Assembly: GCA_030834765.1 (NCBI GenBank)
Contig: JAUQXG010000226.1
Span: 1-22,673, forward strand
Reading direction: 5' to 3'
DNA: 22,673 nucleotides
Source of the DNA: Lutispora sp.
Lineage (GTDB): Bacteria > Bacillota > Clostridia > Lutisporales > Lutisporaceae
The position numbers and the translations under genes are program-made. The notes under the pieces were generated by a model. The model was given only the letters and a program-made list of their open reading frames with translations. It was not told the DNA's origin and did not search any database. Below are positions 232 through 11,608 of the stretch, in pieces. How positions within the stretch are numbered: position 1 is the stretch's first letter; the number at the start of each line of letters is the position of its first letter.

Positions 232-262
232 AAAAAAACCGTCCCCAATGCCTTTAGGCATT
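232..262 (-). terminator. Terminator-like hairpin after the aminotransferase
   Basis: A 6-bp perfect inverted repeat (AATGCC / GGCATT, loop of 4) spans 247-262 and overlaps the aminotransferase stop codon. On the minus strand it is followed by GGGGACGG and then seven T (238-232). The T run starts 8 bases after the stem, so this is not a textbook intrinsic terminator, but position and strand fit transcript ending. Confidence 0.45.
238..248 (-). repeat. GGGGACGGTT post-gene element, copy 1
   Basis: The 11-base word TGGGGACGGTT (minus strand) lies just after the aminotransferase stop. The identical 11 bases recur at 18991-19002, just after the stop of the XRE regulator on the same strand. From memory, GGGGACGGTT-type words are scattered just outside genes in many clostridial and deltaproteobacterial genomes; I cannot check that here. 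Confidence 0.4.
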
Positions 263-1432
263 CAGAGATTTTACTGCCTTATCAATCCTTTCTAAAGCAA
301 TTTTAATATTTTCAAGGGAATTGGCATAAGAAAGCCTCAAATAGCCTTCACCATAGCTTCCGAATGATGATCCGGAAAGGGTGGCTACACCTGCTTCATT
401 CAATAGATAGTCTGCCATTCTTTTACTGCTCATCCCAGTACCAGTTATATTGGGGAAAGCATAAAAAGCGCCATCTGACTTTTTGCAGCTGATCCCTTTT
501 ATACTATTCAAACCGTCAACGATTACATCTCTTCTCTTCTTGAATTCTGCAACCATAGCTTCTACTGCATCCTGTGGGCCTGTCAGTGCTTCTATTCCAG
601 CAATTTGAGTAAAGGTTGCCACACATGAATTTGAATTGATCATAAGGTCAGTCATCTTTGCAGCTAAGTCCTTATTCATAATTCCATAGCCAAGACGCCA
701 TCCAGTCATTGCATAAGTCTTGGAGAATCCATCCAATATGATAGTCCAATCCTTCATTCCCGGGATAGAAGCAATAGATTTCACTGAACCGCTATATATC
801 ATTCTTTCATATATTTCATCTGAAAGTACGTATATTCCCCTACCTCTGATAGCATCTGCAATTCCATCTATGTCTTCGTCTTTAAACATTCCGCCAGTAG
901 GATTTGCCGGTGAATTTATGATGATTAATTTTGTTTTGCTAGTTATTTTTGATTTTAATTCATTCACATCAAGTCTAAAGTTGTTCTCTTCTTTTATAGG
1001 CATTGGCACTGGTACCGCCCCTACAAAATTTATTAATGATTCATATATAGGGAAACCTGGATTGGGATATATTACTTCGTCACCTTTGTTTACAAGCGCC
1101 ATAATCGTATAGAACATGATCGGTTTGCCCCCTGGAACTACTACGACTTCTTCTGCATTGCAGTTGACATTCTTATATTTTTTTGCATAATCAGCGATCG
1201 CTTCTCTAAAAGGAAGATAACCCTGTGCAGCAGTGTAGTGTGTAAAGCCGCTATCCAATGCCTTTTTCCCAGCATGAATAATATTCTGTGGTGTATTGAA
1301 ATCAGGCTCTCCTATTTCAAAGTGAACAATACTTTTTCCTTGGGCCTCTAATGCTTTTGCCCTGGAGAGAACCTGAAATGCAGATTCGCTTCCTAATCGA
1401 TTCACTCTGTCTGCAAATCTATTTTCGATCAT
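254..1432 (-). CDS. Class I/II pyridoxal-phosphate aminotransferase
   Basis: A 392-residue fold-type I aminotransferase of the AspC/AlaT/PatA group, which moves an amino group between an amino acid and a 2-oxo acid in the cytoplasm. Visible motifs are NPTG (residues 177-180), SDEIY (204-208) and the PLP-binding lysine K238 in GFSKTYAMTGWRLGY. R366 in YLRLSYAN is the expected substrate-carboxylate arginine. The length is normal for the family. The ATG start has a GGATGG-type ribosome site 10 bases upstream. It lies 101 bases downstream of the Cys/Met-metabolism enzyme on the same strand, with an inverted repeat between them. The two may be co-transcribed and act together on amino-acid catabolism. 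The exact substrate cannot be read from the sequence. Confidence 0.9.
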   Translation of the reverse strand: MIENRFADRVNRLGSESAFQVLSRAKALEAQGKSIVHFEIGEPDFNTPQNIIHAGKKALDSGFTHYTAAQGYLPFREAIADYAKKYKNVNCNAEEVVVVPGGKPIMFYTIMALVNKGDEVIYPNPGFPIYESLINFVGAVPVPMPIKEENNFRLDVNELKSKITSKTKLIIINSPANPTGGMFKDEDIDGIADAIRGRGIYVLSDEIYERMIYSGSVKSIASIPGMKDWTIILDGFSKTYAMTGWRLGYGIMNKDLAAKMTDLMINSNSCVATFTQIAGIEALTGPQDAVEAMVAEFKKRRDVIVDGLNSIKGISCKKSDGAFYAFPNITGTGMSSKRMADYLLNEAGVATLSGSSFGSYGEGYLRLSYANSLENIKIALERIDKAVKSLNA

Positions 1433-1482
1433 TTAAAACACCATCCTTTTCATTTATATAAATCCATAATTTATAATATATG

Positions 1483-1520
1483 GAGAAACAGCAAGACACT
1501 TTAAATATCTGCTGCTTCTC
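1483..1520. repeat. 11-bp inverted repeat between two PLP-enzyme genes
   Basis: Arms 1483-1493 and 1510-1520 pair over 11 bp with one G-T wobble, around a 16-base loop. It lies in the 101-base gap between the Cys/Met enzyme and the aminotransferase. Neither side has a clear T run, so it may be a weak terminator, an attenuator or an mRNA-stability stem. Confidence 0.5.
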
Positions 1521-1533
1521 TATCATTATTAAT

Positions 1534-2739
1534 CTATTTTATATTTTTAGCAAGATGTTGAAAAGCCTGTTCTAAATCTGCAATAAGGTCTTCTACATCT
1601 TCAATCCCAACGGATATCCTTACTAAACCTTCTGGAATCCCCATCGCTTTACGTTCTTCTACAGTACACTCTACATGGCTGGTTGTTCTAGCTGGTCCAT
1701 AGGTTGTTTCTACAGCACCAAGATTTGCTGCACGATTTGCATATTCTAATTTTGGCAGTAAGACCTTTACCGAATCCATTCCGCCTTTTAGTGCAAAGCT
1801 AAGCATTCCACCAAATCCTCGCATTTGCTTTTTAGCTATATCATGATGAACATGGCTTTCTAAGCCTGGATAATAAACTGCCTCAACAAGCTCTTGCTTT
1901 TCTAGATACTTTGCTATTTCCATGGCACTCTTTGCTTGTTGTAGTACACGAAGCTTCAAAGTTTTCATTCCTCTTAATAAGAGATACGCATCCCAAGGCG
2001 CCAATGTAGCTCCATTAATTTCTCTGTAATGATATACTTGCTCAATCAATTCTTTACTACCGCATGCAACACCACCTAATGCATCAGCATGTCCGCCTAA
2101 AAACTTTGTTGCACTGTGAAGTACTATATCAGCACCTAAAGCAAGAGGATTTTGATTAATAGGAGTAGCAAATGTATTATCCACAACTACTATAGCTCCG
2201 ACAGCCTTGCCTGCTTTAACCATACGTTCGATATCTGTGATTTTAACAGTTGGATTGGTAGGTGTTTCTAGATATAGAATTTTGCAGCCTTTTTTTACTT
2301 CAGCTTCAATTGCTTCGTGATCTCCAGTATTGCAAAGTGTTACGACAACGTTCATATTAGGCAAGAATTCTGTAAATATTTTATTGGTTCCGCCGTAAGT
2401 ATCTTTTATAGATACAACCTTATCTCCAGGTCTCAAGAAGGTATATAACACATTGCTTATAGCAGCCATACCTGTCGAAAAGCTAGTTGCTGCTTCCGCT
2501 CCTTCTAATATTCGCACCTTATTTTCAAATGCAGCAACAGTAGGATTTGTATTACGTCCATATATGTGTCCGAATTTTTTACCAATTGCAACATCATACC
2601 ATTCATCCATATCGTCGTATCCGTACGCTACGCTTACTACTACCGGAACCTGTGTAGCGCCGTGAACGCGCTGTTCTTTTTCTCCTGCCCATACTGCTTT
2701 CGTACTGACCCCTGCATTTAAATATTCATTCTTTTCCAT
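1534..2739 (-). CDS. Cys/Met-metabolism PLP enzyme (cystathionine synthase/lyase family)
   Basis: A 401-residue member of the trans-sulfuration PLP family (MetB, MetC, methionine gamma-lyase, O-acetylhomoserine sulfhydrylase). Visible motifs are YGRNTNPT (residues 60-67, phosphate-binding Tyr60 and Arg62), the STGMAA loop (88-93), VVDNTFATP (185-193, PLP-ring Asp187) and the Schiff-base lysine K212 in SATKFLGGHAD. The usual C-terminal SHVE...GLVRISVGIED motif is intact. At the site where methionine gamma-lyases carry a cysteine (YGC), this protein has YGG (115-117). That argues against a classical methionine gamma-lyase and leaves a cystathionine or homoserine-ester enzyme more likely. An AAAGGAGAG ribosome site precedes the ATG. 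Its upstream gap contains the terminator of the TRAP operon, so it needs its own promoter, which I could not place. Confidence 0.88.
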   Translation of the reverse strand: MEKNEYLNAGVSTKAVWAGEKEQRVHGATQVPVVVSVAYGYDDMDEWYDVAIGKKFGHIYGRNTNPTVAAFENKVRILEGAEAATSFSTGMAAISNVLYTFLRPGDKVVSIKDTYGGTNKIFTEFLPNMNVVVTLCNTGDHEAIEAEVKKGCKILYLETPTNPTVKITDIERMVKAGKAVGAIVVVDNTFATPINQNPLALGADIVLHSATKFLGGHADALGGVACGSKELIEQVYHYREINGATLAPWDAYLLLRGMKTLKLRVLQQAKSAMEIAKYLEKQELVEAVYYPGLESHVHHDIAKKQMRGFGGMLSFALKGGMDSVKVLLPKLEYANRAANLGAVETTYGPARTTSHVECTVEERKAMGIPEGLVRISVGIEDVEDLIADLEQAFQHLAKNIK

Positions 2740-2930
2740 CTTATTCTCTCCTTTAATAATTTATTCAATTAACTTAGTTCTTCTTTATGAATCGTTCTAC
2801 TTATATGTTAATACTATCTTGCTAAAATATCATTCACCATAGTGTATGAAGTTTTATTTAAAGTTGTAGTCAATCAAGATATCTATATTGTCTATCTCCA
2901 CTCATTACATATCAATATCACTTAAAATAT

Positions 2931-2981
2931 AAATACAGAAGAATCGTGTAAAACCGATCACCTTTCACGATTCTTCTGTAT
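2931..2981 (-). terminator. Strong hairpin terminator of the TRAP/hydrolase operon
   Basis: Arms 2933-2948 and 2966-2981 are a perfect 16-bp inverted repeat with a 17-base loop, 48 bases after the stop of the TRAP receptor gene. On the minus strand the stem runs directly into TTTATATTTT. It is the only strong terminator between the M24 hydrolase and the next gene, so it marks the operon end. Confidence 0.8.
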
Positions 2982-3028
2982 CCGTTCACAGAATATTTGA
3001 AATTATTATGTCAAATCTACACATATAC

Positions 3029-4084
3029 CTACTTATTATATTTCTCTGCATCCTTTTGGAAAAGATCAAGAAGCTCTTGTGATTTTCCGCCTGATGCTTC
3101 AACATATTGTTTTCTTACAGAAACAGACAGTTCTCTAAATGCAGCTTTTTCTTCATCTGTAAGCTGAATAAGTGTCATTCCTTTTGAAGTAATTTCATCT
3201 AATATGGTCTGACGTGTCTCTAGCATATTTTTATTGTATTCTGTATTGGCTTCCTTAGCAGAGTCCAATATAGTATTTTGCAACTCGACAGGAATAGATT
3301 CCCAGAAAGGCTTACTGGCACATATGGCATACATAAAGCTATCAGAACCTGCATCCATAAGGTACTTCTGAACTTCATAGTATTTCATGTCTCGAATAGC
3401 TGGAATTGGATTTGTCTGTCCATCAATCATTTTAAGCTGTAGTCCGCTATATACTTCCGCATAAGGAACTGGTGTGGCATTTGCACCATAAGCATTATAG
3501 CTTGCTGCAATCAGAGGAGCAGCCATAGTTCTCATTTTAAAGCCTTTAAAATCTGCTGGTGTTCTTAATGGTTTATTTGCAGTCCAATAAAAGAATCCTT
3601 CGTGTGCCCAGTCTAAAACTTTCATGTTCTTTGCATAAAATAAATCATTCATCATCTTCATTCCATCAGAATTGTGTAAGAAATCCTGTAACCCTACTGG
3701 ATCTGTTGGCAATAAATAATGTAATGAAAAAATATTGCTTTCAGGAACCAAGACTCCTGCAGGGCCAGTACTAACTGTTCCAAGCTCTATTGCTCCATTC
3801 TGTAGTAATTCTACCTGATTTGCTCCATCGCCCAATTGACCTAGCGTATATATATTAACAGTAACCTGGCCATTGGTTTTTGCTTCAACAATTTTTTTAA
3901 ACATTTTGCTATAAATATCCTGGTCCGCTCCTGGTGATTCCTCATGAGCAAGTTTTAATGTGTAAGTTTTCTCAGTTGTTGTATTGCTTGCGGCACCTTT
4001 ATCTTTACTTGCACATCCTAGTAGGGTTGTCATTGCAAAGACAAGTACCAAGCTTAGGCATAATAATCTCATTTTTAATTTCAT
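3029..4084 (-). CDS. TRAP transporter substrate-binding lipoprotein (DctP family)
   Basis: A 351-residue extracytoplasmic solute receptor of a TRAP transporter. It captures a small, usually carboxylate-bearing solute and hands it to the membrane permease. The N-terminus is a lipoprotein signal with a basic start, a hydrophobic core at residues 7-20 and lipobox LLGC (21-24), so Cys24 is the likely lipid anchor, as expected in a Gram-positive cell. The mature protein shows the DctP pattern LKLAHEESPG near the start, GGQ-like LGQLGDG (81-87) and FKMRTM with Arg185, the family's carboxylate-clamping arginine. GLQLKMIDGQTNP (214-226) is the other typical motif. It is the last gene of the operon, 51 bases after the large permease, with an AGGAGG site. 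Putting the receptor last may reflect the hairpin behind it stabilising its mRNA. Confidence 0.92.
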   Translation of the reverse strand: MKLKMRLLCLSLVLVFAMTTLLGCASKDKGAASNTTTEKTYTLKLAHEESPGADQDIYSKMFKKIVEAKTNGQVTVNIYTLGQLGDGANQVELLQNGAIELGTVSTGPAGVLVPESNIFSLHYLLPTDPVGLQDFLHNSDGMKMMNDLFYAKNMKVLDWAHEGFFYWTANKPLRTPADFKGFKMRTMAAPLIAASYNAYGANATPVPYAEVYSGLQLKMIDGQTNPIPAIRDMKYYEVQKYLMDAGSDSFMYAICASKPFWESIPVELQNTILDSAKEANTEYNKNMLETRQTILDEITSKGMTLIQLTDEEKAAFRELSVSVRKQYVEASGGKSQELLDLFQKDAEKYNK

Positions 4085-4135
4085 CTTTTTTCCTCCTAAT
4101 ATTTTAAAATTATATACTTAATTTCTGTGAACACA

Positions 4136-5428
4136 TTACATCGTAGGTGGAAATGCAAGGTCCTTTAAAAACAATGCCAATTGAGGGAAATATATCAGCA
4201 CAATAGTGGTAAATATGAACATTGCTATATATGGAGTTAATCCTTTTACTACTGTGAAAAAAGGTTTGTCAAATATGGCTGATGCTGTGAATATATTGCA
4301 TCCGAAAGGTGGTGTTATTGCACCTATTGCAGCTTGCAATGTAACAAGAATGCCTAGATGTACTGGATCAATTCCGACTTGTATCGCAATAGGATAAAAT
4401 ATTGGTGTCAATATAAGTATGACTGGTATGGAGTCTACAAACATGCATGCAACGAATAAACTAATACTTATTATTGCAAATACAGCATATTTTGATGTCT
4501 CAGGACCGATCAGTCCAGATGCCATCATTTGTGGTATTCCTGCAAAGCTGACGATCCACGAAAAAGCTTGCCCTGCTGCTACAAGAATGAACACTGTAGC
4601 GGTTACTGTACCTGTGGAAAGTGCTATCTTAGGCATATCTTTTAATTTAAGTGATTTAAAAATAAAAACTTCTAAAATCAGAGCATATAACACTGAAACT
4701 GCTGATGCTTCTGTAGGACTAAACATACCTGTATAAATTCCGCCAAGAACAATGATAGGAAATCCTAATGGAAGGATGGCAGACTTTACAGCTTTAACTT
4801 TTTCTTCCCATGTTGCTTTTTTCTGAAGAATAATCCCTTTGTGCTTAGCGATAAGAAATTCATAAATGGAAAAAAGCACGAATACGAAAAGTCCGGGACC
4901 TAGGCCTGCAATAAAGAGTTCTGCAACAGATGTTCCTGTAATAACAGCGTACATAATCATGCAGATGCTTGGTGGTATCAATAGGGCAATGTTCGCTGAA
5001 CACATTAATAAAGCGATTGCATGCTCCGTTTTATAACCAGCCTTCTCCAGTTCTTTTTCCATAGGCTTTCCAATTGCTACCAAAGTAGCTTGAGTCGATC
5101 CAGAAATAGCTCCAAAAATAGTACAAGCACCTGTACAGGTTATCGCTAAACCTCCGCGGATATGGCCCACAAAGGCTCTCAACAATCCTAATAGCCTATT
5201 GGCAGCTTCTCCTGCGCACATGATTTCTGCAGCTAAAATAAACATTGGTATTGCTAGCAAAACGTAGGTAGAAATACCTACCATCAATTGTTGCATCAAT
5301 AGCTCTGGGCTCATATTCTGAAAATAAACTAGAGTTACCACTATGGCAGCAGTAAGCATCCCTATAAACATTGGGAACCCTAGAAATAGACATCCAAACA
5401 TTATTGACAATAATACTACTATAATCAT
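4136..5428 (-). CDS. TRAP transporter large permease (DctM family)
   Basis: A 430-residue, highly hydrophobic protein with about twelve predicted membrane segments: the sodium-coupled transport subunit of a TRAP system. Family signatures are visible in both halves: IFGAISGSTQATLVAIGKPM (about residues 103-122), GGIYTGMFSPTEASAV (about 228-243) and AIGAITPPFGCNIFTASAI near the C-terminus. The length is standard for DctM. The ATG start has a GGGAGAG ribosome site 5 bases upstream. It lies between the small permease gene (61 bases upstream) and the receptor gene (51 bases downstream), the normal companions of this subunit. Confidence 0.93.
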   Translation of the reverse strand: MIIVVLLSIMFGCLFLGFPMFIGMLTAAIVVTLVYFQNMSPELLMQQLMVGISTYVLLAIPMFILAAEIMCAGEAANRLLGLLRAFVGHIRGGLAITCTGACTIFGAISGSTQATLVAIGKPMEKELEKAGYKTEHAIALLMCSANIALLIPPSICMIMYAVITGTSVAELFIAGLGPGLFVFVLFSIYEFLIAKHKGIILQKKATWEEKVKAVKSAILPLGFPIIVLGGIYTGMFSPTEASAVSVLYALILEVFIFKSLKLKDMPKIALSTGTVTATVFILVAAGQAFSWIVSFAGIPQMMASGLIGPETSKYAVFAIISISLFVACMFVDSIPVILILTPIFYPIAIQVGIDPVHLGILVTLQAAIGAITPPFGCNIFTASAIFDKPFFTVVKGLTPYIAMFIFTTIVLIYFPQLALFLKDLAFPPTM

Positions 5429-5489
5429 AACTTCTCTCCCAACTTAAATTTATATTGTTGTTAGAAAACGGATACTCTTGAAAGCCAAT

Positions 5490-6041
5490 TTACATTGCTT
5501 CATCGGCTAAATCTTCTACTTCAACTTCTCCTAGCTTTCTTTCCGTACCGATATATGTTTCATTTTTATCAGATAAATTAAGCAAAACAAGTATAAGATA
5601 TTGTACGCCAGTTAAAAACAATCCAAGTGGTATTGGTATAATGGCAATCCACATGGGGATCTCTAAAGCAGGTGTAATTCTTCCTAAAGCATGTACGTTC
5701 ATAAGGTAAAGAGTGCTTAAGTATGAGAAATAAAACAAGCATGCAGAAGTAAATACACCTCCTAAAATTGTTAAAAACTTCTGGCCTTTTATTGAAAGCA
5801 TATCAACAAAAAGGCTCATTCTTATATGTCTGCTTCTTCTAACTGCAGTAATAATGCCAATATAAGTTGTAAATACGATTAGAAAACTGCCTAACTCTTC
5901 TGCGAAAGTCCAGCTTTGTCCAAGAAACGTTCTACTTAAAACATTTCCTATAAGCAGTACAGCCATTATCAATACTGCTGTAGAAATTGCTACTTCTTCA
6001 ATTTTCTTTAAAATACTGTTAAATTTAATTATAGTATTGAT
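5490..6041 (-). CDS. TRAP transporter small permease (DctQ family), probable AUC start
   Basis: Small membrane subunit of the TRAP transporter, with four predicted membrane segments. The WTFAEELGSFLIVFTTYIG segment is typical of DctQ. The first conventional start is a TTG at 5972, which would give 160 residues, has no ribosome site and would cut the first membrane helix. The frame is open upstream and encodes a typical DctQ N-terminus (ILKKIEEVAISTAV) directly joined to it. A strong AGGGGAGG site (6049-6056) lies 7 bases before an ATC codon at 6041-6039 in this frame, with no ATG, GTG or TTG before the next stop. I therefore place the start at ATC, giving 183 residues. A sequencing error or mutation of ATG is the alternative. 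It is 19 bases downstream of the M20 gene. Confidence 0.8.
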   Translation of the reverse strand: MNTIIKFNSILKKIEEVAISTAVLIMAVLLIGNVLSRTFLGQSWTFAEELGSFLIVFTTYIGIITAVRRSRHIRMSLFVDMLSIKGQKFLTILGGVFTSACLFYFSYLSTLYLMNVHALGRITPALEIPMWIAIIPIPLGLFLTGVQYLILVLLNLSDKNETYIGTERKLGEVEVEDLADEAM

Positions 6042-6060
6042 ATTAAATCCTCCCCTATTT

Positions 6061-7254
6061 TTAAGATGTAGTTGTATTCCTATTTGATCTTTCTATCCAT
6101 TCTGTTGCAATTCTCACATGCATCTCAACCATTAATTTTAAAGCATCCTCATCAATATTGAATTTAGGGTGATGCAAAGAATAGCAGGTATCTTTTTCTT
6201 CATTCCCAACACCTATATGGCAGAATACTCCTGGAATCCTCTCGCAAAATTCCGAAAAGTCCTCTCCAGCTGTAGATCTAATTTCTGAAATATCTTCTGA
6301 ATTCCCAGCTGTTGCAATTGCAGCAGCCTTTGCTATTTCAACTAACTTTGAATCGTTAAACACTGCCGGACTTCCTTCTTCCCAATCAATATGTCCAGAC
6401 ATGCCATATGCTGTACAAATCCCATTTACATATCTTTCCATTCTTACTTTCAAATCTTCATTATCCGTCATCCTATAAAGATATCTTGCCGTACCGTATA
6501 AATCGACTTTCTCTGGAATGATATTGGCTGCAGTTCCACTTTCCATCTTTCCAACCATGATTACGGTTGGCTTCTGAATATCTATCTCTCTGGTTTGAAT
6601 GGACTGCAAGCTTTGAATGATATTGGTTGCACAAATGATTGGATCTTTTGCCAAATGAGGATTCCCAGTATGACCACCTATTCCCCTTACCTCGATATGA
6701 AAATGATCCATTCCAGCCATCACTGCGCCTTCTGTTATTCCGAATTGCCCTGTTTTTAAATAAGGCCATACGTGGATTGCAGCACAGGCCTGCGCTGGGT
6801 ATTTTTCTAACAAACCTTCATTGATCATATTCAAAGCTCCTGCACCCTCTTCGTTTGGCTGGAAAACAAATAAGACTTTGCCATGAATCTCACTAGCGTG
6901 CGCTGATAATATTTTAGCAGCTATCAATAAGGTTGCCATATGAGCATCATGGCCGCATGCATGCATTTTTCCTTCATGCTTTGACTTAAATGGCAAATCA
7001 TTCTGTTCTTTTACATCCAATGCATCTATATCTGATCTGATCATAAACATTGGACCGTCACTTTCTTTGTTTAGAAGAGCCACAACTCCTGTCTTGGTGA
7101 TTACTTCAGTTTCCATTCCTAAATTCTCAAGGTATGCTTTTATCTTGCTTGATGTTTGATATTCTTCATACCCGGTCTCTGGAATCATGTGAAATTCACG
7201 TCTTAGCTCTATCAATTCCTCAGCATTTTCCAAAATAGACTTTTTTATATCCAT
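6061..7254 (-). CDS. M20 family amidohydrolase/deacylase
   Basis: A 397-residue zinc (or other divalent metal) hydrolase of the M20D group (hippurate hydrolase, indoleacetyl-amino-acid hydrolase, N-acetyl-diaminopimelate deacetylase), which cuts N-acyl groups from amino acids. Metal and catalytic residues are visible: Cys100 and His102 in HACGHDAHMA, the Glu pair in QPNEEGAG (135-136), His161 in AIHVWP, and the late His of SLHHPKFNIDE. GIGGHTGNPH (191-200) is the dimerisation-domain motif. I chose ATG at 7254 because an AGAGGTG site sits 6 bases upstream; the longer GTG start at 7284 has none. It lies between the M24 hydrolase and the TRAP genes. A deacetylase acting on the M24 product would fit the operon, but the substrate is inferred. 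Confidence 0.88.
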   Translation of the reverse strand: MDIKKSILENAEELIELRREFHMIPETGYEEYQTSSKIKAYLENLGMETEVITKTGVVALLNKESDGPMFMIRSDIDALDVKEQNDLPFKSKHEGKMHACGHDAHMATLLIAAKILSAHASEIHGKVLFVFQPNEEGAGALNMINEGLLEKYPAQACAAIHVWPYLKTGQFGITEGAVMAGMDHFHIEVRGIGGHTGNPHLAKDPIICATNIIQSLQSIQTREIDIQKPTVIMVGKMESGTAANIIPEKVDLYGTARYLYRMTDNEDLKVRMERYVNGICTAYGMSGHIDWEEGSPAVFNDSKLVEIAKAAAIATAGNSEDISEIRSTAGEDFSEFCERIPGVFCHIGVGNEEKDTCYSLHHPKFNIDEDALKLMVEMHVRIATEWIERSNRNTTTS

Positions 7255-7321
7255 CTGTACACCTCTTCTTACTATGATGTTCACAAATCAATCCCAGTTT
7301 TATTCAATATGATAAATTTAG

Positions 7322-7361
7322 TATTGGTATGATAACACCTCATTTGATTACCATACCAATA
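7322..7361. repeat. Intergenic 14-bp hairpin within the hydrolase operon
   Basis: Arms 7322-7335 and 7348-7361 pair over 14 bp with a single A-C mismatch and a 12-base loop. It lies between the M24 stop and the M20 start. No T run follows on the minus strand, so it looks like an mRNA-processing, stability or partial-attenuation stem rather than a terminator. Confidence 0.6.
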
Positions 7362-7366
7362 AAATA

Positions 7367-8536
7367 CTACTTCAATATAAGGTTTCTGGGATAGTGTGCA
7401 AAAGTCTCATATCCATTCTCAGTTACTCGGAAGGACTCACTAATAGAAACACCGAAGTCCTGAAAATACATTCCCGGTATACAGTGGAATGTCATGTTCG
7501 GTTGAAGCACTGTTTTATCTCCAGCCCTTATACTGGCTGTATGCTCACCCCAATCAGGAGGGTAGTTCAGTCCCATGGAATACCCTATTCTTGACTCTTT
7601 TTCAAGACCATTCTTTTTAAGGACATTCCTAAAGGCCAATTCCATCTCTTCAAGGTATATTCCTGGCTTTACAGTACTCAAAGCTGCTTCTAACCCTTCA
7701 ACAGCAATCTTTGCAACATCTGCTACCTTTGGATTAGGCTTTCCAATACATACAGTTCGTGCTAAGGGAGAATGATACCTTCTATAACAGCCTGCTATTT
7801 CTATAGCAACAACAACATTCTCCGGATATTTATCATCAGACCAAGTAAGATGCGGTGCTCCAGCCATTTCTCCCGCTGGCAGCATAGGGACGATACTAGG
7901 ATAATCCCCTCCGAACTCTTCTGTTCCTCTGATTTGTGCAGAATATATCGCCGCTACAACATCACAGTGCCTAACCCCGGCTCCCATTGTATCTGATGCA
8001 GCCTGAATTGCAAGGCCTGCAAGAACCCCTGCTTTATGCTGATATTCTATTTCTTTCTCTGATTTGATTATCCGAACCCAATTTACTAATAGATTTGCAT
8101 TAGCAAATTTTGCATTAGGAAGGTTCTCTTTTAAAACCTCATAACCTTGGGCTGAAAACCAATAATTGTCCATCTCAACGCCTATTGTTTTATTATCTAA
8201 ACCAAGCTCTGTAATTACCTCCGCAAATCTTTCCATTGGATGTTTATTAGGATTATGAATGCAAGTATCACTGTAAGCTCTAACATGCTTTTCATCAAGC
8301 CAAGTTGTTTTCACCACACCACTGAAAGCATCCATATATCTGCCCACAAAGATTGGCATATTGTCATTTAATGTTACGATTAATCCTTGTGGTACATAAA
8401 ATGACCAAGCATCATGCCCTGAAAGATAGCAGATATTGGCCGGATCAGACACGATTAAAGCATCTATTCCTTTTTCAGCCATTGATAATTGGGTTTTCTT
8501 CATTCTGCTCAGGTACTCTGTCTTTTCAAAATGCAT
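7367..8536 (-). CDS. doeA: M24 creatinase-fold hydrolase, ectoine hydrolase (DoeA/EutD)-like
   Basis: A 389-residue protein of the M24 'pita-bread' family: creatinase N-domain (about residues 10-155) followed by the catalytic domain (about 165-389). The usual metal ligands are gone. The first Asp aligns with Glu246, the second (SDITRT-type) is Pro257 in YHSPLARTV, the His site is Tyr319 in GYSMGLNYPPDWGEHT, and the two Glu sites are Ile353 and Ser366. It is therefore a metal-free hydrolase, as in creatinase and ectoine hydrolase. QIRGTEEFGGDYPSIVPMLP, PHLTWSD and NYPPDWGEHT match DoeA/EutD sequences as I remember them, much better than creatinase. DoeA opens the ectoine ring to N-acetyl-diaminobutyrate in the cytoplasm. 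First gene of the operon; AGGGGGG ribosome site. A related amidine or amide substrate remains possible. Confidence 0.75.
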   Translation of the reverse strand: MHFEKTEYLSRMKKTQLSMAEKGIDALIVSDPANICYLSGHDAWSFYVPQGLIVTLNDNMPIFVGRYMDAFSGVVKTTWLDEKHVRAYSDTCIHNPNKHPMERFAEVITELGLDNKTIGVEMDNYWFSAQGYEVLKENLPNAKFANANLLVNWVRIIKSEKEIEYQHKAGVLAGLAIQAASDTMGAGVRHCDVVAAIYSAQIRGTEEFGGDYPSIVPMLPAGEMAGAPHLTWSDDKYPENVVVAIEIAGCYRRYHSPLARTVCIGKPNPKVADVAKIAVEGLEAALSTVKPGIYLEEMELAFRNVLKKNGLEKESRIGYSMGLNYPPDWGEHTASIRAGDKTVLQPNMTFHCIPGMYFQDFGVSISESFRVTENGYETFAHYPRNLILK

Positions 8537-8581
8537 TTTTTGCCCCCCTATTTCTTAATTTACTAAATATTTAAACTATTT

Positions 8582-8600
8582 GTTTATCACAGTTTATCAC
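8582..8600. promoter_or_regulatory. Tandem GTTTATCAC repeat upstream of the hydrolase operon
   Basis: GTTTATCAC occurs twice, at 8582-8590 and 8592-8600, a 10-base period or one helical turn. It lies 46-64 bases upstream of the M24 start. On the operon's strand the repeats read GTGATAAAC twice, followed by an AT-rich stretch with weak promoter boxes. That is the arrangement of an activator site next to a promoter that needs help. One of the two divergent regulators is the obvious candidate binder. Confidence 0.45.
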
Positions 8601-8615
8601 CGCTACTAAAAAACG

Positions 8616-8640
8616 AAAATTACCCTCTTGCGGTATTTTT
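8616..8640. promoter_or_regulatory. Imperfect palindrome in the divergent promoter region
   Basis: AAAATTACC and GGTATTTTT form a 9-bp inverted repeat with one mismatch around a 7-base centre. It is 80-104 bases upstream of the M24 start, between the two divergent transcription units. It may be an operator; the sequence alone does not show which protein binds. Confidence 0.3.
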
Positions 8641-8702
8641 ATCCCCCAAAAGTATTATGTGAATATTTAGTCAATTCTGAATGTTATATCTGATGTATAC
8701 TA

Positions 8703-8731
8703 TTGTAATCCACCATGCATAGTAGTATAAT
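8703..8731 (+). promoter_or_regulatory. Sigma-A promoter for the regulator pair
   Basis: TTGTAA (8703-8708), a 17-base spacer and TATAAT (8726-8731) make a near-consensus housekeeping promoter. It faces the LuxR-type regulator, whose ATG is about 88 bases past the expected start of transcription. Confidence 0.65.
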
Positions 8732-8825
8732 TTTCCCTAACTTATTATGATTTTACTTTATTGAATCTTTTCTTAAATAGCACATTCTAAAGTATAAAAA
8801 CTTTATTGGTTTGAGGTGATTATAA

Positions 8826-9911
8826 ATGGAATCAACACAATCAATTAAGAACTTGCAAAGACTTTTGCAGTTTACACTGGCTCTTAGTGCTGCTCCCTCT
8901 TTCGAAGATTATATAATGGATCTATTAACAAATGTCATTGAATTTGATAGCGGTTTTTTTATTTCTTTGAATCAAATGGCAGTTCCTGACATAGTAATTG
9001 GCTATAATATAGATCATTCTATGATAAAGAGCTATAAAGACACTTACTACAAATATGATCCCCTTTTGGACTACTCCTATAGAATGAATTTCTCCTCACA
9101 GACAGAGCATATAATGGCTGTATCAATAGATACGCATTATAATCAACTCTCAGGATTTATAAAATATATGTCAAATGATAATCTATCCTATGGCATTTTA
9201 ATGACAATAAATAGTAGGGGAGATGGTATTCGCCTCTTCCGTAAGGCATCCTCAAATATGTTTTCTGATGAGGATATGGAAGTATGCAAATATTTATGTA
9301 GAATACTAGGCTCACTATATGAGACTCATCTCAGAAATAAAAAATACTATTTGGAATCAAATCTATTTAAGATTGCAAAAGGCAATATGCTATTTGGCTA
9401 TATTATTTTTGATCAAAATTTCTCTATCGTCTTTTCTAATAAGTTGGCTAATGAGCGCATCTATAAAATTACACAGAAGGCTTTTTTCCATGATATGATT
9501 TCTGACTTCATTCTTATTATAAAGAACTCTATCGCTGCTAATATTGATAGAAAATCCGATATAACCTTTTACGAGATCACCCAAGCATATATTTTAGAAA
9601 TTATTATTAATCAGAATATAGATGAACTAGGTAATATAAGAAATTATTATATTACCTATATATATGATAAGAATTGGTTTGGCAGCATGGCTAGGCTCAC
9701 CGCCGAGAAAGTCATTGAGCAGTATAATCTGACAGAAAGAGAGAAACAGCTTGTAAAGCTAATCTACAAAGGTCTTAGTAATAATCAAATCGCAGATTAT
9801 CTTTATATTAGCACTCATACTGTCAAAGACCATCTCAAAAACATTTTCCGCAAATTAGATTTATCAAGTCGAGGAGAATTAATGGCAAAGATATTTGACG
9901 AATGCAAATAA
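8826..9911 (+). CDS. LuxR-type transcriptional regulator with GAF/PAS-like sensor region
   Basis: A 361-residue regulator. The C-terminus (about residues 300-361) is a clear LuxR/GerE helix-turn-helix: LTEREKQLVKLIYKGLSNNQ, then IADYLYISTHTVKDHLKNI, then FRKLDLSSRGEL. The first 170 residues look like a GAF-type small-molecule sensor, and about 180-275 resembles a PAS fold (YIIFDQNFSIVFSNKLANER). These two assignments rest on pattern only. There is no phosphoacceptor receiver domain and no membrane segment, so it probably senses a ligand in the cytoplasm. It starts at an ATG with a GAGGTG site, is divergent from the hydrolase/TRAP operon and is followed 44 bases later by a PucR-type regulator. 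The layout suggests control of the divergent operon. Confidence 0.85.
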   Translation: MESTQSIKNLQRLLQFTLALSAAPSFEDYIMDLLTNVIEFDSGFFISLNQMAVPDIVIGYNIDHSMIKSYKDTYYKYDPLLDYSYRMNFSSQTEHIMAVSIDTHYNQLSGFIKYMSNDNLSYGILMTINSRGDGIRLFRKASSNMFSDEDMEVCKYLCRILGSLYETHLRNKKYYLESNLFKIAKGNMLFGYIIFDQNFSIVFSNKLANERIYKITQKAFFHDMISDFILIIKNSIAANIDRKSDITFYEITQAYILEIIINQNIDELGNIRNYYITYIYDKNWFGSMARLTAEKVIEQYNLTEREKQLVKLIYKGLSNNQIADYLYISTHTVKDHLKNIFRKLDLSSRGELMAKIFDECK

Positions 9912-9955
9912 ACTAAATAATTGGCAATTCTATTTGGATAGATAAGGAGGATAAT

Positions 9956-11608
9956 ATGCCGCTCACCTTGAAAGAACTTTTGAATATTCCAATTATGAGT
10001 AAAGCTAAGATCCGAACAGCTGCAGACACACTGCCAACTCGCCCTGTTGAATCTGTATCTGTAATAGAGATTCCTGTAGAGAACTTTGTACGTAAAAATG
10101 AGTTAGTCATAAGTACAGCTATGGGGTGTAATAATGATGCAGTAATATTTAAGGAATTCCTAAGAGATATCTTCGAATCTGAGGCAGCCGCTTTGGTAAT
10201 AGCAACAGGAGGACATATAAAAAATATCCCCGAGGAAGTTCTTCAAGCTGCGGAAGAACTTCATTTCCCAATTATCGAAATACCTTGGGAGGTTCGCTTC
10301 GGCGATATCATTGAAGTTGTATTGACCGAGCTTCACAGCCGACACTTGACCAATCTACGACGATATGAAGATTTGCACAATAAGCTTCTTAACTTATTTC
10401 TTAATAGTTCCCACCTATCAGATGCTGCGGAATATATACATAAAGAGCTGGGAAGTTTGGTAGTTATTATTGATAATGAAGGAGTAATAAAAGGAAAAAG
10501 TAAGCAGTCTGGGGTCTTCGTAGAAATCTTAACTCCATACCTTCAACAGGCTTTTTCCTTTATTGACATATATGAAGCTCCCGAACCATTTAATATACCA
10601 GAGGACACAATTCTAACATATAAGATTCAGTCAATGAGCAAACTTTATGGATATGTGCTTCTAAAACTAATGCCTGAACCAACCATCGAAACCTGTTCTG
10701 CAAATGAAAAGGAGAATATAATCAGATCTATCACATCAAGTATTATGCTTTGGTTTCAAAGGGAACAAGCTATTAAGGAAACCGAAATGCGACTCAGTGA
10801 TGATTTCGTATGGAGCCTTGCAAAAGGTGAAATAGATTCCTGGGACAATATGGATTTTCGATCTAAATCAATGGGCTATAACCTTTCTATTCCTTATCTT
10901 TGTATTGCTGCCTTTGTAGATCATATGGAGAAATCATCTAAATATAATAAACCCATAAAGGCTGATCACGAGCAGTGGTTATATAACAATATCAACAGTA
11001 TTAAGGAACAAATAGCGTGGGCAGGAAAATATTTAAAGCTAATGACTATGGTGTCCTATAGACAAGACCGCTTGGTTATTTTTTTAGAAGTCCAGAACAA
11101 TCAGCCACAGCAAAACTTCAACAGATTTCTTGATATAATTGAAAATAGATTAAAAAGGTTTCTTCCAGATGTAGTTATGTCATGGGGCATAGGGGAAAAT
11201 CACATAGGAATAAAAACCTTTCATAAAAGCTTTTTAGATGCCAGTACTGCCCTAGATATTTGTTATGGCCAAAGTGGTCCAGGGCATCGAAGCACTTATT
11301 CAAAAACCGGTATTTATAGAGTATTGCAAATGATAGCTAATAACATAGAGTTACAAGAAATTACGCAATCAACCATTAGTGAGTTAAGTGACTATGATAA
11401 ACAACGTGGCTTAAATCTGACAAATACATTGAAAGTCTACATTAAAAATCAAGGAAATGTTAGTCAAACTGCTAGAGAGTTAAATTTACATCGACAATCA
11501 CTCTTATATCGGCTGAAGAAAATTGAAGTCCTCACGAACCGTTCTCTTGTGGATACCGATGACTTATTTCTTCTGGATCTAAGCATCAGATTATGGAGTA
11601 TTCTATAA
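9956..11608 (+). CDS. PucR/CdaR-family transcriptional regulator
   Basis: A 550-residue regulator of the PucR family, which controls purine, allantoin, sugar-acid and amino-acid catabolism genes in other bacteria. The N-terminal PucR domain spans about residues 5-125 (MPLTLKELL start, VIATGGHIKNIPEEVL). A middle region (about 290-420) resembles the CdaR GGDEF-like domain, and the C-terminal HTH_30 motif is at about 480-548 (GNVSQTARELNLHRQSLLYR, then LKKI). An AAGGAGG site lies 6 bases before the ATG. It follows the LuxR-type gene by 44 bases with no terminator between them, so the two are probably co-transcribed. PucR-type regulators normally respond to the substrate of the linked pathway, here presumably the solute taken up by the TRAP system. 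Confidence 0.88.
   Translation: MPLTLKELLNIPIMSKAKIRTAADTLPTRPVESVSVIEIPVENFVRKNELVISTAMGCNNDAVIFKEFLRDIFESEAAALVIATGGHIKNIPEEVLQAAEELHFPIIEIPWEVRFGDIIEVVLTELHSRHLTNLRRYEDLHNKLLNLFLNSSHLSDAAEYIHKELGSLVVIIDNEGVIKGKSKQSGVFVEILTPYLQQAFSFIDIYEAPEPFNIPEDTILTYKIQSMSKLYGYVLLKLMPEPTIETCSANEKENIIRSITSSIMLWFQREQAIKETEMRLSDDFVWSLAKGEIDSWDNMDFRSKSMGYNLSIPYLCIAAFVDHMEKSSKYNKPIKADHEQWLYNNINSIKEQIAWAGKYLKLMTMVSYRQDRLVIFLEVQNNQPQQNFNRFLDIIENRLKRFLPDVVMSWGIGENHIGIKTFHKSFLDASTALDICYGQSGPGHRSTYSKTGIYRVLQMIANNIELQEITQSTISELSDYDKQRGLNLTNTLKVYIKNQGNVSQTARELNLHRQSLLYRLKKIEVLTNRSLVDTDDLFLLDLSIRLWSIL

Follow-up and report, generated by a model that had tools for sequence, protein, structure and literature searches.

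Ectoine is a widespread compatible solute that protects cells against salt stress. The proteobacterial eut/doe systems combine EutD/DoeA, EutE/DoeB, Atf/DoeD and Ssd/DoeC with the transporters UehABC or EhuABCD and the regulator EnuR; the classical breakdown route is reviewed in PMC5924519 (accessible part). Recently, ectoine clusters were also proposed for Bacilli, Clostridia, Actinomycetes and Halobacteria (PMC13188858, April 2026). In the accessible part of that text Bacillaceae are described as lacking eutE, PucR, abgB, thrA and adh are named, an amidohydrolase is placed in the clusters, and the gene orders are given as pucR-eutBCD-atf and abgB-thrA-adh. Here we compare with these systems a locus in a 22,673-nucleotide stretch of DNA (the window: contig JAUQXG010000226.1 of a Lutispora sp. 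genome that is 87% complete). The host is probably anaerobic, judging from its kin and from its ornithine aminomutase. A sequence-only reading of the window had described five minus-strand genes at 3029..8536; the genes lie exactly there, and Pfam names all of them, i.e. an M24 protein, an M20 protein and the complete DctQ-DctM-DctP set of a tripartite ATP-independent periplasmic (TRAP) transporter.

We give a probability of roughly 0.6 to the explanation that the locus serves a Firmicute for the uptake and catabolism of ectoine, working as follows. DctP would bind ectoine and DctQM would import it. Ring hydrolysis by the M24 protein would then give N-acetyl-2,4-diaminobutyrate; it would need no metal and would rely on the equivalent of DoeA E255, a Glu at the position held in M24 peptidases by the first metal-binding Asp. 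The M20 protein would take off the acetate instead of EutE/DoeB, and the nearby pyridoxal phosphate (PLP) enzyme PRK08249 would attack the gamma-amino carbon of 2,4-diaminobutyrate, in the window most likely by a gamma-elimination that yields 2-oxobutyrate and ammonia. In Bacilli-type clusters, which contain homoserine dehydrogenase (HSD) and aldehyde dehydrogenase (ALDH), a replacement that leads to homoserine and then to aspartate appears more likely. The substrate may be sensed by PucR and/or LuxR. The second enzyme would differ from that of the textbook pathway, and probably the third as well.

The M24 and M20 enzymes

The solved structure nearest in sequence to the M24 protein is DoeA of Halomonas elongata (6twk, 365 bits), as compared to 102 bits for prolidases and 35 for creatinase. 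The three motifs by which the sequence-only reading had recognised DoeA/EutD (RGTEEFGGDY, PHLTWSD and NYPPDWGEHT) are all found in the translation. The protein was aligned with sequences from 7 of the 68 alphaproteobacterial loci, DoeA, Bacillota relatives (42 rows with the window) and 18 peptidase-like rows, which are weak matches to the DoeA/EutD model TIGR02993 rather than assayed enzymes; frames outside 340-430 residues and identical copies were left out (e.g. L138, the pieces in L144 and L154, and the alphaproteobacterial L079). The Glu at DoeA position 255, which Mais et al. reportedly identified in 2020 as the covalent nucleophile, is kept in the window protein, as are Pro266 and Tyr329; at these positions the peptidase-like rows have Asp (17/18), Asp (17/18) and His (18/18), respectively. 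The PPDWGE stretch, mostly an insert, is also kept and is absent from all 18 peptidase-like rows. At positions 363 and 376 the protein has Ile and Ser where Glu occurs in 18/18 and 17/18 of these rows. The peptidase-type positions compared here are presumably the metal ligands of M24 enzymes.

The phylogeny agrees with the residues: 50 DoeA-like rows, the window protein among them, are split from the 18 peptidase-like rows with a support of 100/99, L082 and several peptidase-like rows being on long branches. EutD and DoeA form a clade of their own (100/100) inside the 50 rows, and the window protein groups with those of Anaerovorax (L001) and UBA1426 (L002) (100/100), the M24 identity being 79%. 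The AlphaFold2 model (predicted local distance difference test, pLDDT, 87; predicted template modelling score, pTM, 0.86) is closest to the five DoeA chains (TM-score 0.92-0.94), followed by PepE at 0.81, with creatinases at about 0.80 lower in the list; it is worst at residues 320-327 and this part runs into the PPDWGE stretch, so the detail of the pocket was not read from it. Profile search and tree, both suggested along with the sequence-only reading, thus put DoeA first and the protein apart from the peptidase-like rows, and its assignment to DoeA/EutD holds as regards clade, residues and predicted fold. A peptidase reading of the protein was rejected on the basis of residues and tree.

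The neighbouring M20 protein passes the amidohydrolase model TIGR01891 (338 bits, cut-off 153.75), but we consider genome context a stronger argument for its role than family scores. The loci of M24 relatives are the best 80 of 516 matches, and neighbourhoods were counted in 45 Bacillota loci, 44 with M24 (L164 is without), and 68 alphaproteobacterial loci, 67 of them above threshold; some genomes and genera contribute more than one locus. Genes were named by their best phmmer match to our own reference set, most of which was named by Pfam and NCBIfam searches (EtfB and EamA were named by eye, U1 and U3 are without family, and the EutE reference, from L059, was chosen by similarity to an NCBIfam-named gene of L033). 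Within 10 kb of M24/EutD, EutE is present in 67/67 alphaproteobacterial and 0/44 Bacillota loci, whereas an M20 gene is present in 0/67 and 36/44, respectively (32/35 for Bacillota loci of at least 15 kb). EutE/DoeB (TIGR02994) had no match in the 87%-complete Lutispora genome either. These counts support the view that in Bacillota M20 fills the position next to M24 that EutE holds in Alphaproteobacteria, in line with the sequence-only reading. Such a swap is not new in itself, since NCBIfam has an M20-type DoeB2 model and clusters without eutE appear in the accessible part of PMC13188858; a literature search on DoeB2/DoeA2 gave no match. The M20 tree has two groups; members of the first belong mostly to TRAP-type clusters and those of the second to Bacilli-type clusters, which suggests that M20 was probably recruited more than once. 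The idea of an M20 lineage specific to ectoine-type operons was dropped: the position of the window row in the tree is not firm, and a Lutispora paralogue without M24 falls among the M24-linked rows.

PRK08249 and the TRAP receptor

The proposed third enzyme is encoded behind the transporter genes. It scores 755.3 bits on PRK08249 (NF006097, cut-off 600), a member of the cystathionine gamma-synthase/methionine gamma-lyase family, and 396 on the methionine gamma-lyase model (cut-off 550). Its distribution follows that of the M24 protein. In a sample of the phylum (398 genomes) M24 is found in 18 genomes (E <=1e-40) and PRK08249 above cut-off in 3, all within the 18; without the Lutispora genome, both PRK08249 genomes (2/2) have M24 (p = 0.0017). 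In the class of genome G215 (154 genomes) 16 genomes have M24 (E <=1e-80), 22 have PRK08249 and 15 share them, i.e. PRK08249 occurs in 15/16 M24 genomes as opposed to 7/138 others (Fisher p about 1e-14, kinship not corrected), and seven genera hold both. PRK08249, M20, HSD-like and ALDH-like genes stand near M24 in 16/44 Bacillota loci, the usual order being EutC-PRK08249-M20-HSD-ALDH. With Ureibacillus and Lysinibacillus, Lutispora shares 83% identity in PRK08249 but only 54-56% in M24, which suggests transfer of the PRK08249 gene. In Acetobacter (L033), PRK08249 (655 bits) occurs with EutD (781) and EutE (588), all above cut-off, and no aldehyde dehydrogenase of the reference kind was found in the 21 kb of this locus (the Atf model was not searched there). 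This set, together with the co-occurrence, points to diaminobutyrate as the substrate, and we propose that PRK08249 breaks down 2,4-diaminobutyrate.

Among solved receptors DctP is nearest to 4pfi (201 bits), followed by TeaA (183 and 182), UehA (160), 4nn3 (146) and others with lower scores. The residues of TeaA that we take to contact ectoine are Glu9, Arg144, Trp167, Asn184, Trp188 and Phe209 (numbered as in the printed chain), and Glu9, Arg144, Asn184 and Phe209 align with the same residues in DctP. Near M24, 18 of the 44 Bacillota loci have all three TRAP genes and 4 have a gene of the EhuB type.

Counter-evidence and alternative explanations

A number of observations weigh against an ectoine locus of this composition, and they are given here together with the alternative explanations. 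The first concerns the third step. A hairpin separates PRK08249 from DctP, so PRK08249 may not be co-transcribed with the TRAP genes; 7 of the 22 PRK08249 genomes in the class (L165-L171) have no detected M24, nor any reference genes near PRK08249; and a homoserine dehydrogenase of the kind seen in L010 was not found in the Lutispora genome by a search without control, with which the homoserine route was set aside for this genome. It is conceivable, although doubtful, that the five genes take ectoine to diaminobutyrate, that PRK08249 and the aminotransferase next to it are unrelated neighbours, and that enzymes encoded elsewhere in the genome use diaminobutyrate, be it an aminotransferase or a set of dehydrogenase, ferredoxin oxidoreductase and ammonia lyase. 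Lutispora does have a hotdog-type ammonia lyase (202 bits on the 3-aminobutyryl-CoA ammonia-lyase model, cut-off 160) and a VorB-like oxidoreductase that shares 54% identity with its L005 counterpart, the hairpin behind DctP would fit, and the near relatives L003, L005 and L006 carry the dehydrogenase/oxidoreductase/lyase set. However, neither the oxidoreductase nor the lyase of Lutispora is encoded on the contig of M24, and the fact that PRK08249 accompanies DoeA-like M24 in other genomes as well speaks against a chance neighbour.

The second group of observations concerns the substrate. The M24 protein reaches 439.8 bits on TIGR02993, i.e. it stays below the curated cut-off of 613, which makes it a divergent relative; the four tested alphaproteobacterial proteins score 780-821, the tested Bacillota relatives 423-531 and the distant L082 216. 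It keeps 135/207 EutD-invariant and 83/138 EutD-specific positions, not all of them. M20 is under the cut-off of the DoeB2 model NF038260 (282.2 bits, cut-off 550), and Trp167 and Trp188 of TeaA are not kept in DctP. The five-gene order is broken in the nearest M24 relatives: in L001 the M20 gene is further downstream and the TRAP set is different, and neither M20 nor TRAP genes were found in L002 (11.6 kb), nor in L009 and L149 (16-21 kb). Sets of M20 and TRAP genes are also found where M24 is missing, as in Lutispora itself, where a second M20 (51% identical) accompanies DctP and DctM on a 3.9-kb contig. The EutD positions that are not kept, the M20-TRAP sets without M24 and the loci lacking M20 and TRAP would fit a DoeA-like amidohydrolase of changed specificity, acting on another cyclic amidine or an N-acyl diamino acid. 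We regard this as unlikely, because E255, the PPDWGE insert and the position in the DoeA/EutD clade are of the DoeA type, and because ectoine genes stand beside relatives of the protein (EutB and EutC above cut-off next to M24 in other Bacillota, EhuB above cut-off in L010). Ectoine is the likely substrate.

That 5-hydroxyectoine is the main substrate, rather than ectoine, is improbable. EutB-like genes are near M24 in 23/44, EutC-like in 17/44 and EutA-like in 5/44 Bacillota loci, but none of the three was found within 10 kb of the window M24, and EutB was rejected as a candidate in the 87%-complete Lutispora genome, where the best match to the family has 240 bits (cut-off 413). An ordinary operon for the uptake of peptides or peptidoglycan fragments, in which M24 would be of the prolidase and M20 of the carboxypeptidase type, is very improbable: the Pfam domains of M24 are generic and the top score of M20 is, marginally, that on carboxypeptidase CpsA (339 bits, under the cut-off of 500), but M24 lacks the peptidase-type residues and falls outside the peptidase-like group of 18 rows.

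Layout, related clusters and known systems

Features of the window around the DoeA-like gene
Feature	Coordinates	Strand	Basis
Class I/II aminotransferase, pathway membership uncertain	254..1432	-	PF00155
PRK08249 PLP enzyme, proposed to consume diaminobutyrate	1534..2739	-	NF006097; co-occurrence
Hairpin 3' of DctP, probable terminator	2930..2982	-	folding energy
TRAP receptor DctP, proposed ectoine receptor	3029..4084	-	PF03480; PDB neighbours 4pfi, 3gyy/2vpn (TeaA), 3fxb (UehA)
TRAP large permease DctM	4136..5428	-	PF06808; TIGR00786 371 bits, above cut-off
TRAP small permease DctQ	5490..5972	-	PF04290
M20 amidohydrolase, proposed N-acetyl-diaminobutyrate deacetylase replacing EutE	6061..7284	-	TIGR01891; EutE/M20 swap
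M24-M20 gap, hairpin without T run	7285..7366	-	-16.7 kcal/mol
DoeA-like M24 hydrolase, ectoine ring opening proposed	7367..8536	-	TIGR02993; DoeA 6twk; residues, tree, model
Divergent promoter region, M24/LuxR	8537..8825	.	between the two divergent genes; same LuxR-M24 divergent pair in L001
LuxR-type regulator	8826..9911	+	PF00196; 401-bit relative adjoins M24 in L001
PucR-type regulator	9956..11608	+	PF07905, PF13556

The sequence-only reading had also stated that the unit ends in one strong terminator with no strong one inside. The first part probably stands, as DctP is followed by a long hairpin with a T-rich tail (about 2935-2979; the stretch folded has -28.9 kcal/mol); the second needs correction for the smaller hairpin between M24 and M20. 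The hairpin behind DctP is missing from the output of a simple terminator scan (2000-10000), whose four terminator-like sites, as compared to 4.7 in shuffles, are no excess. The described span also left out PRK08249, the aminotransferase and the divergent LuxR and PucR genes. PucR is near M24 in 15/44 Bacillota loci, the window locus included. As had been remarked, a regulator of the GntR/MocR type such as EnuR is missing: there is none among the nine proteins scanned (254-11608). The second DctP-M20-DctM set of Lutispora (L176, contig C37) has a gene that looks GntR-like by eye. The aminotransferase reached no NCBIfam equivalog among those listed, and Rfam and tRNA scans of the window were empty. 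There is no ATG behind the GGGGAGG motif in front of DctQ (5972-6061, minus strand), and the earliest of the listed starts is a TTG lying further inside; the true start is probably further upstream than 5972, and translation may begin at a rare codon (ATC, ATA or ATT), or the sequence may contain an error.

Related clusters suggest further fates of diaminobutyrate. In two Peptococcaceae (L005:3362-19471 and L006) and in Clostridium sp. MD294 (L003:7470-18642) the M20-M24-DctQMP genes stand beside glutamate dehydrogenase (GluDH)-like, 2-oxoacid:ferredoxin oxidoreductase and hotdog-lyase genes. Moorella stamsii DSM 26217 is another relative with a dehydrogenase-type cluster. The GluDH-like protein of L005 has 423 bits on archaeal GdhA (cut-off 750), and three oxidoreductase subunits are present, of the VorB subfamily (481 bits, above cut-off). 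At 171 bits the lyase of L005 exceeds the cut-off of the NCBIfam model for 3-aminobutyryl-CoA ammonia lyase (160), which that of L003, at 115 bits, does not reach; among solved structures the L005 lyase is nearest to beta-alanyl-CoA:ammonia lyase (139 bits). Etf subunits are encoded in L005 and L006 as well, together with an acyl-CoA dehydrogenase nearest to acryloyl-CoA reductase (347 bits in L005, cut-off 640) and an EutA-like protein, which in L005 scores 140 bits on the EutA model (cut-off 318) and 149 on that of arylmalonate decarboxylase (cut-off 225). These sets would make sense as diaminobutyrate breakdown via 4-amino-2-oxobutyrate, beta-alanyl-CoA and acryloyl-CoA to propionyl-CoA; since the hotdog-lyase model describes an enzyme of lysine fermentation, the lyase may act on a different amino compound. 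The hotdog gene of Lutispora (L128:2644-3036, contig C54) lies on a contig that ends soon after it. Lysine 5,6-aminomutase was considered as the reason for its presence, but the sole PF09043 match is the ornithine aminomutase OraE (1153 bits), so this lyase is left without explanation.

In other clusters an aldehyde:ferredoxin oxidoreductase gene (6/44 loci) is near M24 together with genes like serine hydroxymethyltransferase (SHMT; L130-L133, 4/44) or threonine aldolase (L136; such genes in 2/44). SHMT-like and threonine-aldolase-like enzymes would fit a retro-aldol cleavage of hydroxy-diaminobutyrate, and we speculate that those of L130-L133 and L136 may cleave an amino acid derived from hydroxyectoine. 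The PLP enzymes of L007, L008, L134 and L141 are 41-42% identical to the window PRK08249 and nearer to methionine gamma-lyase (L007: 479 bits, cut-off 666). A protein family of about 310 residues stands beside GluDH-like and mostly PanB-like genes (L004:8093-9025, L129, L135, L137, L139, L142, L143, L144), with no Pfam match in two members and no NCBIfam match in one; dehydrogenase-type clusters with EutB likewise contain PanB-like genes and this family. In L144 (G174) M24 is split in two by an internal stop codon, while M20, EutB, GluDH-like and TRAP genes remain. In L002 (1781-4117) genes named by eye as aspartate-semialdehyde dehydrogenase and aspartokinase lie directly behind M24.

Taken together, we put forward, tentatively, that anaerobic Firmicutes ferment ectoine by routes for which we found no publication. 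One would be a PLP gamma-lyase route to 2-oxobutyrate, with PRK08249 or a methionine-gamma-lyase-like relative (L007, L008, L134, L141). Another would lead to propionyl-CoA through GluDH-like, ferredoxin-dependent 2-oxoacid oxidoreductase, beta-alanyl-CoA-ammonia-lyase-like and acryloyl-CoA-reductase-like enzymes with EtfAB. In some genomes a hydroxyectoine branch would be added, with SHMT- or threonine-aldolase-like enzymes and aldehyde:ferredoxin oxidoreductase. Among the literature matches listed, no text links PRK08249 or another enzyme of the cystathionine-gamma-synthase type to ectoine breakdown or deals with ectoine fermentation through beta-alanyl-CoA; on anaerobic ectoine fermentation and on PRK08249 with ectoine, nothing similar beyond PMC13188858 is among them, judged by titles and abstract starts. 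If the reading of this locus and its relatives is right, M20 deacetylation and diaminobutyrate breakdown by PRK08249 provide candidate enzymes for missing steps, PRK08249, in NCBIfam merely a 'cystathionine gamma-synthase family protein', gains a function, and there is an anaerobic route that returns the carbon and nitrogen of ectoine to the food web.

It remains to compare the locus with the known systems. Enzymes of the methionine gamma-lyase/cystathionine gamma-synthase family perform PLP chemistry at the gamma carbon; PRK08249 shares the family match but has an NCBIfam equivalog of its own and follows ectoine-type genes in the genomes compared here. Homologues of beta-alanine- and lysine-type fermentation enzymes stand beside M20-M24-TRAP in L003, L005 and L006 (the acryloyl-CoA-reductase-like one in L005 and L006 only), but not beside the window M24. 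With DoeB2 the window M20 shares the family and the proposed deacetylation of N-acetyl-diaminobutyrate, and differs in its score on that model. With the proteobacterial eut/doe systems the window shares the DoeA-like M24 and a TRAP transporter near TeaA/UehA; on the other hand, it has M20 and not EutE, PRK08249 nearby, LuxR and PucR and not EnuR, and an M24 under the DoeA cut-off. Neither Atf nor Ssd is among the nine scanned window proteins (no model for either was searched in the Lutispora genome). As far as the accessible part of PMC13188858 goes, the clusters proposed there have in common with the window the DoeA-like M24, the absence of eutE, PucR and an amidohydrolase; in L010-L012, which are of other species, PRK08249 occupies the position given to atf in that order. 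The window differs from them in that TRAP genes lie directly behind M24-M20 and LuxR beside M24, that eutB, eutC, thrA and adh are not nearby, and that its M20 is of the other M20 group. We conclude that the locus is real and belongs, as a divergent member, to this type of ectoine cluster that was put forward recently, and that its downstream step is probably new.

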